Shown here: positions 42,911 to 51,684 of the stretch, one piece after another
Layout: each line of letters starts with the position of its first letter
Position numbering within the stretch: the stretch's first letter is position 1
Origin: Virgibacillus sp. AGTR
GTDB taxonomy: Bacteria; Bacillota; Bacilli; Bacillales; Amphibacillaceae
Direction: 5' to 3'
Length of the DNA: 63,108 nucleotides
Assembly: GCF_016919725.2 (NCBI RefSeq)
Contig: NZ_JAJERH010000014.1
Coordinates: 1-63,108 of the forward strand
Made by a program: the position numbers and the translations under genes
Notes under the pieces: model-generated
The model's input: only the letters and a program-made list of their open reading frames with translations
Databases searched by the model: none
What the model was told of the DNA's origin: nothing

Positions 42911-44809
42911 TTAAGAGCTTTTAACCCCAGTCTCTTGACGTCTAAGTTCCGAGAACTCGTCCCGATTTTCTACAAAAATCTGATGCCATAGCATAAATAC
43001 AAGTACAGTCCATAGCTTTCTTGCATGTTCTCCCTTATTAGCAGCATGCAACTCCAATAAATTTAACATAAATGATTTGTCAACTAGATGATCGGTTTCA
43101 CTCGTTTTAATTAAATTTTTCGCCCACTCATATAATTCATCTCGTAACCAGGATTTCATTGGTACGGGAAAACCGAGCTTTTTCCGATTCAGCACATGAG
43201 CTGGAATAATATCGTGCACCGCTTTTCTTAGAATAGACTTCGTCGTACCATCAGCTATCTTGTATTGTGTGGGTATTTGTTTTGCAACATCAAAAACGGC
43301 CTTATCTAAAAACGGTACACGTAACTCTAATGAATTTGCCATCGTCATTCGATCTGCCTTTACTAAAATGTCCCCTGATAACCATGTATGGATATCAATA
43401 TATTGCATTTTTTGAACGGGATCTGCGGCCTCTACACACTTATATAAAGATTTTGTCCAAGATTGATAGGACTGGTTACTAGCATAATTCAGCATAAACT
43501 GTTGTTTTTCCGCTTCTTCAAACATCTTAGCATTGCCAATATATCTGTCTTTAAGTGATGTAGTTCCCCGCTGTAAAAAGCTTTTACCTCTCACACCCTC
43601 TGGCATCATATCTGCGATCCGTTTGACTAGTGGCATAATGCCTTTAGGTATATATTGAAAGCACCTTAATGCTTCCGCCTCTCGGTAAATATTGTATCCA
43701 CCAAATAATTCATCTGCACCCTCGCCCGAAAGCACAACTTTAACATGCTTTCTTGCTTCATTTGCTACAAAATAAAGCGGAATACTTGCTGGATCGGCTA
43801 AAGGGTCATCCATATGCCAGATTATTTTTGGTAGTTCACTAACAAATGCTTGGGCTGAGATATATCGATGAATATTTTCAACGCCAAGCTTTTCAGCACT
43901 CTCTTTTGCTACATCGATTTCCGAGTAGCCAGCCTCGTCAAACCCTACCGAAAAAGTTTTTATTTGTGGATTTATTTGTTTTGCCATTGCTACTATGATT
44001 GTTGAATCAATTCCACCAGACAAAAAAGCACCTACTGGGACATCACTTTGCATATGTGCTGTCACTGAATCAAATAATACTTCACGTATAGCAAACATCA
44101 GCTGTCTTTCATTTTTATGCACTGGTTGCAGACTTGCATGAAAGTATCTAGAGATTTGTATCGGCTTTTGCCAATCCTTAACAAAATAATGACCAGGCGC
44201 TAAACGTTGTATCCCTTCTGTTATTGTTAATGGATCTGGCACGTATTGAAACGATAAGTAATGCTGAAATGCTCGTTGATCAACTACATCCTGCTTATTT
44301 AAATAAGAGATACACTTTTTCTCTGATGAAAAGACAGTATCATGTTCATTTTCACAGTAGTAAAATGGTTTGATCCCAAAAGGATCCCTAGCTCCATAAA
44401 GTCTTTTCTCGTCTTTATCCCAGATTAATATGGCGAACATACCACGAAGTTCTGAGAATCCTTCAACACCTTGATCTAGAAATAAGAAAGCAGCAACCTC
44501 TGTATCTGAATTGGTGGTAAAATGATACCCTTTTTTCTTTAATTGCTCTTTTACTATTTTTTAGTTATATATCTCACCATTAAAAACCATCCAATACCGT
44601 TGCTTGCCAAAAGAAAAAGGCTGCTGTCCTCCATCAATATCAATAATACTTAACCTTCGGAAGGCTAATGCTATATGATCATCATGGTAGCTACCATCAT
44701 CATCCGGACCTCGATGTCTAATTAGCTGATTTGCTAGTTTGATTTCTTCCAAATGCTCATTACTGAATTGAACCTCTTGATCTAATAGTACTCCTACGAA
44801 TCCACACAT
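42911..44809 (-). pseudogene. asnB: Glutamine-dependent asparagine synthetase, interrupted by a nonsense codon
   Basis: A single frame of 632 codons, the length of B. subtilis AsnB, broken only by TAA at 44561-44563. The N-terminal glutaminase domain starts MCGFVGVLLD (catalytic Cys2) with RHRGPDDDG and NGEIYN; the stop stands where the family has Tyr in GEIYNY. After it KIVKEQLKKKGYHFTTNSDT continues the glutaminase domain, then the synthetase domain with PP-loop LSGGIDSTIIVAMA. The ribosome site AAGGAGG is intact. The downstream 509 codons from ATG 44440 lack the glutaminase active site. It would convert aspartate, glutamine and ATP to asparagine if intact. Confidence 0.85.
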
Positions 44810-49720: not shown

Positions 49721-49721
49721 A

Positions 49722-49763
49722 AATAAAAGCAAGTCCTACCTTACTGCAGGACTTGCTTTTATT
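49722..49763. terminator. Strong bidirectional terminator
   Basis: A perfect 16-bp stem, AATAAAAGCAAGTCCT (49722-49737) with AGGACTTGCTTTTATT (49748-49763), around a 10-nt loop. It serves fdhD and the convergent parR-like gene, whose stop it overlaps. Confidence 0.88.
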
Positions 49764-50295
49764 TATTCATACTCGAAAAGAAGTCTTTTAATGGATCCTC
49801 TTCTTCCTCTTCGATTACCTCTTGCTGTTGGTTTGTATCTAACGAATCCAAACGTAAACTATCTAAATCTATTTCTTCCTTTAGAGCTGTTTCCTCCAAC
49901 ACAGGCTTACCTGTGTCAATATCATTTTCTTGTAAGTATAGTGCCTCATCAATATTCGTATGATTACTGTTTAAGGAAGCCAATAAGGTCGTAGCTCGCA
50001 TTGGGTCACTTAATAATTGATATAGAATGGTACCTACTAATGCTTCTGAATGCTCATGTTTCAACCAACTCTTTTGTTCCTTGGTTAATTGTTTGGGGAG
50101 CGGGACAGTGACCGTTTCCCGCTCTTTTGTAACACTTTCACTTAAGCCTCGTAATACAAATTGGGCAATTTGACTAGAAAAATTTCTCCGTTCCGTTTCC
50201 TTGAGTCGTTGTAGCGCCTTTAGTAAATAATCCGGTGTATCGGAAGGAACACGAAAGGTTATTGATTGCCCTCGTTCAATTGTGTTTTTGGCCAT
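49759..50295 (-). CDS. ParR-like DNA-binding adaptor of a ParM partition system
   Basis: Protein of 178 aa. Residues 8-55 (SITFRVPSDTPDYLLKALQR, NFSSQIAQFVLRGL) look like a ribbon-helix-helix DNA-binding domain. The middle is helical (EQKSWLKHEHSEALVGTILY), and the C-terminal 60 residues are acidic and end EEDPLKDFFSSMNK, a hydrophobic tail suited to capping actin-like filaments. It lies 9 bp downstream of a ParM-like gene, the classical parM-parR order. By analogy it would bind the repeats at 51571-51684 and couple them to the filament. Family assigned by context and fold pattern. Confidence 0.7.
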   Translation of the reverse strand: MAKNTIERGQSITFRVPSDTPDYLLKALQRLKETERRNFSSQIAQFVLRGLSESVTKERETVTVPLPKQLTKEQKSWLKHEHSEALVGTILYQLLSDPMRATTLLASLNSNHTNIDEALYLQENDIDTGKPVLEETALKEEIDLDSLRLDSLDTNQQQEVIEEEEEDPLKDFFSSMNK

Positions 50296-50304
50296 TATAT
50301 CACC

Positions 50305-51480
50305 CTATTTTGCTTTTGCCTTTACTGCTTCTTTCTCTTCCTTTTCTTGCTTGGCATTCTTATTTACAAAATCAGTTATTAACTTATAATAAGCATTAGC
50401 CATCATCCAAATACTTTCCTGTTCATCTTCAAAGAAATCAATGTTAAAGCCATCGAGTTTATTATTAAGTGCTTTTAAATAATCTTTTAAGACTGCTGAT
50501 CCACCACCGACAAAGTAACAAATTTCCGATTGGGAATTCTTAGCCCACACGTTTCTTAAGAATCGATACTCTTTTTTAGCCAATTCAAGTAGGATATGGT
50601 CTGTAATATCGTGAACGCTTGTCCTACTTCCTTTGACCATGATGTGATGTCGGTCATTTTTCCTTGTAATAATATCTACTACATCACGGCGACTATCTAG
50701 CTCTACACCATGTTTTGTTCGAATTTCTTCCCTAATCTGCTCCAGTGATTCAGAAACGCCTAAATTAAATCCTTGGGCTTTATCATCGTCAACATTACGA
50801 TTACGAATCACCGCGATATCTGTTGACAATCCACCAATATCTTGAATAAGTATTTGTTTATCAATCAAATCTTTATTAATAACTTTTAAATCATTATCCA
50901 TAATTAAATTCACATATGCTGCAAACCCCTCTGGATAAACCTTTACTTCATCAAATTTAATGTTTACTTTCTTACCCTGATGATGTGGTGTTACTAAAAA
51001 TTCAACTTGGTGAACCGATCCCAGTAATTGAGAACGATAACCTACATCCTTACCTTCCTTTACCTCTCGGAGTGGTAGCCCAGTTCCAAGGGTATAATTT
51101 GCATCAATAACTTTATTCTTCATGGAAAAGGCTCCATTTTCTACTGCATCCAATGCTAAGGAAGCAAATAGCATAATTAAGGTTTGATCCTCTTCTGCCT
51201 TGCTACTACCGGGATCTAGCTCTGTTGAATTGTTTGTCTTTGTTGCTAAATTCCCAACACGGTAGATTACGTTATTTTCTTCGAGCGCAGGTGAATGTAC
51301 GCGAATATGAATATTATCCAATACCTCTTTTTTATCTAGCTCTTCAATGCCAATTACGGGACGGTCTTCAAAATCCTGGGCGACTACATTGGGAATATAT
51401 ACCTCGTGTTCCATCTTTCCAAAGTTTGCCTTTAACGCATCGTTTCCCACGTCCACTGCTGCTATTCTTGTTTTTGTCAT
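50305..51480 (-). CDS. parM: ParM/StbA-type actin-like ATPase
   Basis: Actin-like protein of 391 aa. Nucleotide-binding motifs are phosphate-1 AAVDVGNDALKANFG, phosphate-2 ILIQDIGGLSTDIAVI and the adenosine motif CYFVGGGSAVL. The tail is highly charged (NAKQEKEEKEAVKAKAK). ParM filaments push plasmid copies apart when nucleated by ParR on parC. The ATG at 51480 has GAGAGGAG upstream; the frame is open 10 codons further to 51510. ParR-like gene downstream and repeats upstream complete a cassette, here surrounded by chromosomal housekeeping genes. Confidence 0.85.
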   Translation of the reverse strand: MTKTRIAAVDVGNDALKANFGKMEHEVYIPNVVAQDFEDRPVIGIEELDKKEVLDNIHIRVHSPALEENNVIYRVGNLATKTNNSTELDPGSSKAEEDQTLIMLFASLALDAVENGAFSMKNKVIDANYTLGTGLPLREVKEGKDVGYRSQLLGSVHQVEFLVTPHHQGKKVNIKFDEVKVYPEGFAAYVNLIMDNDLKVINKDLIDKQILIQDIGGLSTDIAVIRNRNVDDDKAQGFNLGVSESLEQIREEIRTKHGVELDSRRDVVDIITRKNDRHHIMVKGSRTSVHDITDHILLELAKKEYRFLRNVWAKNSQSEICYFVGGGSAVLKDYLKALNNKLDGFNIDFFEDEQESIWMMANAYYKLITDFVNKNAKQEKEEKEAVKAKAK

Positions 51481-51570
51481 GTAAGAAAACTCCTCTCCAT
51501 AATAATACATTCTATCTAAGAGTACTTCCTTTCTTCTTATAACGCAATCCGACTTTTTTCGTATTCTATT

Positions 51571-51684
51571 TTGTATACATGTTTACAGTTTAGTTTTCGT
51601 TGATATAACAGTGTCTACACATATTTGTACACAAGTAAACATTTTTGTGTTCTTCATGTACACTTTTTGTTTACTTGTATACAT
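51571..51684. repeat. Candidate parC centromere: 17-bp repeats upstream of parM
   Basis: Three related 17-mers: TTGTATACATGTTTACA (51571-51587), TTGTACACAAGTAAACA (51625-51641) and, inverted, ATGTATACAAGTAAACA (51668-51684). Consensus TTGTAYACAAGTAAACA; a partial ATGTACAC lies at 51657-51663. They precede the parM start by 90-200 bp, where parC lies in ParMRC loci, and may also overlap the parM promoter. Confidence 0.6.

Follow-up and report, generated by a model that had tools for sequence, protein, structure and literature searches.

A ParMRC-type cassette of Bacillales chromosomes and its conserved parC array near the replication origin

We analysed a 63,108-nucleotide stretch of DNA from Virgibacillus sp. 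AGTR (hereafter the window), in which an earlier reading of the bare sequence (the original prediction) had placed a parC-parM-parR layout at 49759–51684 on the minus strand. This layout was borne out by family models, by homology of the small protein to plasmid adaptors and by a regularly spaced repeat array. In the direction of minus-strand transcription, three near-palindromic sites are followed by a gene for a ParM-like actin, a gene for a 178-aa protein, a terminator-like hairpin and the convergent fdhD gene. The features are as follows:

51668–51684, minus strand: parC site 1, the most distant from parM (PWM, 21.1 bits)
51625–51641, plus strand: parC site 2, 42 bp from site 1 (PWM, 19.6 bits; spacing)
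51588–51612, no strand assigned: interruption of the array, with similar stretches in many relatives (by eye)
51571–51587, no strand assigned: parC site 3, 54 bp from site 2 (PWM, 21.7 bits; spacing)
50305–51480, minus strand: parM, an actin-like ATPase of the Alp7A/ParM kind, 391 aa (ORF table, Pfam, PHROG, alignment)
49759–50295, minus strand: parR, an adaptor-like small protein of 178 aa with an acidic stretch and invariant C-terminal residues (ORF table, neighbours, alignment, hhalign, model)
49721–49764, minus strand: terminator-like hairpin at the operon end, between parR and convergent fdhD (consensus scan, which returned 2 terminator-like sites in the stretch against 1.3 expected)

The neighbours given in the original prediction (fdhD, gltBD and rlmN, named by protein likeness) are present in the window's ORF table. 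A further gene at 42911–44809 (minus strand), asparagine-synthase-like by its sequence, appears as two ORFs (44561–44809 and 42911–44440), as if a frameshift or stop lay between them.

The ParM-like ORF spans 50305–51510 on the minus strand; its likely start is the ATG at 51480, with GGAGAGGAG just before it, and a loose pattern found an SD-like motif at the corresponding start in all relatives (80/80; best 80 of 428 loci). The product matched the Pfam families Alp7A_like_C (124.5 bits; cut-off 22) and ALP_N (39.1 bits; cut-off 26.3) as well as PHROG 691 'partition protein' (E 2e-41), in agreement with the ParM-like actin ATPase proposed earlier. Among 28 aligned sequences (here and in the trees below about every third ParM was taken), D10, G12, K17, D214, G216, G217, D221 and G325–G327 are invariant, residues that belong to the nucleotide motifs of such ATPases. 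Scores against the NCBIfam plasmid ParM equivalog PRK13917 (31.3 bits) and the FcmB morphology actins (28.1 bits) were far under the curated cut-offs of 417 and 300, and a sequence search of solved ParM and ParR structures gave no true match and one chance hit. The predicted ParM structure was poor (mean pLDDT 43.8) and was left out of the analysis. Some ParM matches (e.g. in genomes G316, G274, G149 and G177) have an in-frame TAA inside the aligned range, which by the open-frame lengths lies near the C-terminal end and may be end variation only. Several of the 45 near-complete genomes described below also carry a second, weak ParM relative (~30% identity) far from parM and dnaA (e.g. at G274:C1:2797788, G149:C1:2497193 and G136:C1:3324372).

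The 178-aa protein, ParR, matched no Pfam or PHROG family and gave only sub-cut-off noise with NCBIfam; a Pfam search with 41 family members returned noise only, and one plasmid relative had a sub-cut-off Arc match (E 0.042). Using hhalign, we found ParR to be homologous to proteins encoded beside six plasmid ParMs (probability 99.8, E 5.8e-28, 99 columns), which are annotated as hypothetical and represent the 6 of 36 plasmid matches that were fetched. Chromosomal relatives were pulled out by pattern at 79 of 80 loci (L089 was missed; best 80 of 428), and 40 of these 79 entered the alignment. Across its 41 sequences, R8-G9-Q10, F14-R15, P17–P21, R37–S41, L169, F172, M176 and N177 are invariant, and a variable acidic stretch lies between the invariant N-terminal part and the conserved C-terminus. 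Of the acidic tail attributed to this protein, the acidic stretch is present, and the conserved C-terminus follows it. Plasmid ParR proteins have a DNA-binding N-terminus and a ParM-binding tail, and the conservation pattern would suit the same division here. In the predicted structure (mean pLDDT 61.9), residues 4–21 are non-helical or extended and helices span residues 22–34 and 39–57, with no strand assigned; the helix order in this low-confidence model is that expected of a ribbon-helix-helix monomer. Comparison of the model with the PDB by Foldseek and VIA-align yielded no match, and the proposed ribbon-helix-helix fold has weak support.

The three related repeats reported upstream of parM were recovered at the positions listed above. 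As 16-bp units they occupy 51668–51683, 51626–51641 and 51572–51587. The sites are near-palindromes (model consensus TGTATACATGTATACA), and the earlier description of one of them as inverted therefore carries little meaning. A PWM trained on 80 other loci (best 80 of 428) with the window excluded, and independent only for the window, returned exactly these sites as its top three matches in 63 kb, any other position scoring 12.4 bits or less. When the window's genome was scanned with the 17-mer of the original prediction at up to one mismatch, this locus alone was found, by two of its three sites; the third site differs from the 17-mer at 3 positions. The interruption of the array reads like CTGTTATATCAACG in parM orientation and resembles stretches in many loci (L064–L143); it might be a site for another protein, or might set the bend of the complex. 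A search for a second motif in the array gave, from one seed, a degenerate motif exceeding 12 bits in 63 of 80 regions versus 4–9 in shuffles, which misses the window stretch seen by eye; from the other seed the search drifted to the ParR site itself.

The array is conserved among relatives. In 81 upstream regions (80 loci, the best 80 of 428, plus the window), the untrained word TGTNNACA occurs 4.35 times per region versus 0.28 in order-1 simulated sequence, mostly 100–300 bp upstream of the parM start; 14 of the 81 regions have fewer than three copies, some none. All 80 loci on which the PWM was trained (best 80 of 428) have at least two PWM sites in the 400 bp upstream of parM. Neighbouring sites are regularly spaced (n = 208 intervals in the 81 regions), with 52 intervals of 20–22 bp, 77 of 41–43 bp, 34 of 53–55 bp and 26 of 56 bp, classes that correspond roughly to two, four and five helical turns; the array comprises a median of 3 strong sites (range 2–6) at 20–56 bp spacing and covers ~131 bp overall. 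Exact sites in the 45 near-complete genomes number 36 in the 400 bp upstream of parM, spread over 27 genomes, and 37 elsewhere; the other 18 genomes lack one in that 400-bp stretch, and four genomes contain none anywhere. Since the genome-wide total hardly exceeds that of a reversed-pattern control (101 versus 91 strand matches, our own sums over the 45 genomes), exact sites away from parM look like background, and the array at parM forms their sole cluster in these genomes. An arrangement like that of parS, with many parC sites round the chromosome, was ruled out: away from parM, no pair of exact sites within 300 bp was found in the 45 genomes. One genome has an extra exact parC-type site downstream of parM, close to where the small gene ends (G045:C1:3264738).

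We found parM at E 1e-20 in 202 of 397 genomes of an order-level sample (one match weak; 57 of 136 genera), the remaining 195 having no match at this threshold. In a class-level sample 24 of 398 genomes matched at E 1e-100, eight of them outside the order, in two families. Strong parM matches (at least 77% identity) occur in 23 of 61 genomes of a sample of relatives, the window's own included, with four more having weak matches only, and in 2 of 8 genomes of the window's genus, again including its own. The cassette is dispensable. Named parM loci (best 80 of 428, mostly draft contigs) come from Virgibacillus, Oceanobacillus, Halobacillus, Lentibacillus, Metabacillus, Neobacillus and others. 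The small protein was found beside ParM at 23/23 loci (22 relatives and the window), and ParM, small protein and array occur together at all 80 named loci (best 80 of 428), with a gap between parM and parR of 6–19 nt in 78 of 79 measured loci from the same set. The next commonest neighbour, an rlmN-like gene, lies within ~6 kb of parM at 32 of these best 80 of 428 loci. Because the small protein is constant and the rlmN-like gene is not, we take the unit to be parC-parM-parR.

To describe the position of the cassette, we used genomes with a strong parM match and at most four contigs (45 of 46 qualifying genomes, G151 with 3 contigs being left out; 25 genera in the program's tally and 17 families by our own count). 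Each of the 45 has dnaA and parM on one contig. The side of dnaA on which parM is found and its orientation are constant (45/45), with transcription running away from the origin and co-directionally with replication. The distance to dnaA has a median of 95 kb (range 36–407 kb), and parM falls within the origin-nearest 10% of the half chromosome in 35 of 45 genomes; 10 lie outside, the farthest at 407 and 288 kb. The window itself is a 63-kb contig of a 215-contig draft and is not placed relative to dnaA; in four genomes of the same family the distance is 176–407 kb. The controls in this comparison were only genes that adjoin parM in some lineages. For rlmN, 7 of 29 close-type and 0 of 22 remote-type copies were within the origin-nearest 10%, counting copies on the dnaA contig (a rule also applied to a second-contig copy in G223 and to a second-ranked remote copy; a third remote copy in G370 was dropped); for a monooxygenase, with paralogy as a caveat, the figure was 1 of 39 (best hits with 50% identity or more, which 39 of the 43 genomes with any match have). 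The genes around parM change, but parM stays near the origin. The proximity could also go back to one ancestral place and persist because gene order near origins is stable in general.

When genomes are compared in pairs, the identity of their ParMs is correlated with the identity of DnaA (r 0.70, 17 genomes) and with that of RlmN (r 0.80, 18 genomes), as DnaA is with RlmN (r 0.80, 16 genomes); mean identity over 17 genomes is about 0.82 (81–82%) for ParM and 0.84 for DnaA. ParM and RlmN have similar dN, and most dS values are saturated (one row of the table, gltD versus L038, is spurious); this fits purifying selection on ParM. Plasmids gave 36 ParM matches, the best 44.8% identical and all below 60%, and phage proteins gave no ParM match at E 1e-5; a recent plasmid or phage gene was ruled out on these grounds. 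A tree built from 27 chromosomal and 6 plasmid ParMs splits them into these two groups with 100/100 support; 5 weak paralogs were left out of it, having given extreme branches in a first version. By eye, TGTATACA-like sites can be made out at the promoter in some of the six plasmids. The original prediction had offered a captured plasmid locus or a chromosomal filament system: because of the fully supported split and the tracking of DnaA and RlmN, capture holds only for the deep past, and a chromosomal filament system fits. The best reading of these comparisons is that the cassette is an old chromosomal branch of a family common to plasmids, inherited vertically in Bacillales.

ParABS (Soj/Spo0J-parS) provides an origin-proximal chromosomal centromere. 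Two ParB-type proteins over cut-off were found in 45/45 genomes, two of which have a third below cut-off, so the cassette does not replace ParABS, and by the same token a second partition system is not obviously needed. Around parM, parS-like sites with up to two mismatches to the consensus occur in 6 of 103 sources (the window, 22 wide loci and 80 named loci, the best 80 of 428, with some genomes present twice) and not in the window; parS beside parC was rejected accordingly. The six lie within 10 kb of parM (L050:17596, L051:4803, L053:974, L055:2492, L080:892 and L106:10546), and a few such sites may be expected close to the origin. No parS-like site at the same stringency was seen in 30 short dnaA loci. 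The gene for SpoIVA is present in 80 of 80 sampled parM-positive versus 72 of 80 parM-negative genomes (drawn from 188 with strong parM and 175 without, G061–G424; G258, a weak match, was dropped). The eight negatives belong to four genera of three families and so represent few independent events, leaving a weak hint of a link to sporulation.

Chromosomal ParMs with an adjacent ParR (cParMR) have been described in Desulfitobacterium, Clostridium botulinum, Bacillus tropicus (two), Moorella and others, several conserved within genera and accompanied by ParA and ParB genes, and the C. botulinum ParR binds a palindromic parC (PMC12270681, as far as its accessible text goes). The present locus shares the chromosomal ParM with adjoining ParR and the company of ParA/ParB genes; it differs, in a comparison of cParMs by description, in having a parC conserved across genera, whereas the accessible text of that paper identifies no conserved cparC in the Clostridium strains studied there and does not settle the function. 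It differs also in being origin-proximal: that text gives no origin distance, 'oriC' appearing only in a reference title. Our search of the literature for chromosomal ParM with oriC, Bacillaceae or origin proximity, in the parts of papers available and with subscription papers mostly outside it, recognised no other report as this locus. Plasmid ParMRC systems of Bacillus and relatives, the Alp7A kind among them, have in common with it Alp7A_like_C, the order of the genes and homologous small proteins, and some plasmids also have TGTATACA-like sites; the best plasmid ParM is, however, 44.8% identical, and plasmid sites crowd the promoter (by eye), whereas chromosomal arrays lie mostly 100–300 bp upstream. 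Repeated ParR sites beside parM are likewise known from pSK41, whose ParR binds 20-bp repeats (PMC9426499, in the part available), and from R1, although neither solved ParM nor solved ParR has a sequence match here. FcmB/FcmC of filamentous cyanobacteria resemble our ParM in being chromosomal actin of plasmid partition origin, but control cell shape (PMC12645912, accessible part), and the FcmB cut-off is not reached by the window's ParM. The likeness to ParABS lies in an origin-proximal chromosomal centromere; the NTPase differs, and ParB-type proteins coexist with the cassette in 45/45 genomes. As anatomy, we are nearly certain that this is an old ParMRC-type cassette of the chromosome, whose parC is conserved and lies close to the origin.

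For plasmids, actin-based segregation is an established mechanism. For the chromosomal cassette, we lean, without great confidence, towards a type II (actin-based) partition system acting on sister origins in the cell. ParR would bind the regularly spaced near-palindromic 16-bp parC sites upstream of parM to form a curved complex; parC, being close to the origin (some 40–400 kb from dnaA), would be duplicated early in replication; and ParM filaments capped by two ParR-parC complexes would push, space or anchor the sister origin regions, working alongside ParABS, whose ParB part is present too. ParR would probably also repress its own operon. We infer the DNA binding, the filaments, the force on the chromosome and the autoregulation, and the origin-proximal position points to a role for a chromosomal filament system.

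An unlikely, though not negligible, reading is that the segregation role has been lost, with ParM filaments doing another job such as shape or scaffolding and ParR-parC serving as operon repressor and operator only. The array lies directly upstream of the operon and ParB-type proteins occur in all 45 genomes, both in line with such a loss; yet a median of 3 strong sites at 20–56 bp spacing over ~131 bp exceeds the needs of a simple operator, and constant origin proximity is not predicted. Its precedent is FcmB, a plasmid-derived chromosomal actin controlling cyanobacterial shape in the accessible part of PMC12645912, whose model our ParM matches only far below cut-off. We give a small chance to a special case of the partition reading, in which the cassette mainly serves sporulation by bringing the origin region to the cell pole or holding it there. 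DNA near the origin is captured first in sporulation, and the SpoIVA counts (80/80 versus 72/80) lean the same way, but the few independent events behind the eight negatives, and SpoIVA in most sampled parM-negative genomes too, weigh against it.

A slim chance goes to an anti-plasmid role, in which chromosomal ParR/parC would compete with related incoming plasmids through incompatibility. Homologous ParMR pairs do occur on plasmids of the same order, and in Clostridium perfringens plasmid incompatibility is determined by the specificity with which ParR binds (PMC9426499, in the part available); plasmid ParMs are, however, at most 44.8% identical, the plasmid sites inspected by eye differ in spacing or letters, and such a role gives no reason for origin proximity. 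That the cassette is a neutral remnant of an integrated plasmid we regard as highly improbable: the family is shared with plasmids and its presence is patchy, but mean ParM identity of about 81–82% between genomes is close to that of DnaA, ParM dN is like that of RlmN with dS saturated, and the three parts are kept together at 80/80 loci (best 80 of 428).

If the partition reading is true, this would be, to our knowledge, the first actin-driven segregation machine of a chromosome, rather than of a plasmid, with a defined centromere. The conserved centromere, regular geometry and constant position make it directly testable in culturable Virgibacillus, Oceanobacillus and Metabacillus. Tentatively, and short of an even call, roughly half the genomes sampled from the order may possess a dedicated actin-based chromosome partition system, made of one conserved origin-proximal parC, one ParR and one ParM, that pushes or anchors sister origins beside ParABS and is perhaps needed most at sporulation. 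Our results suggest that many Bacillus-like bacteria may move their own chromosomes with an actin-like filament.
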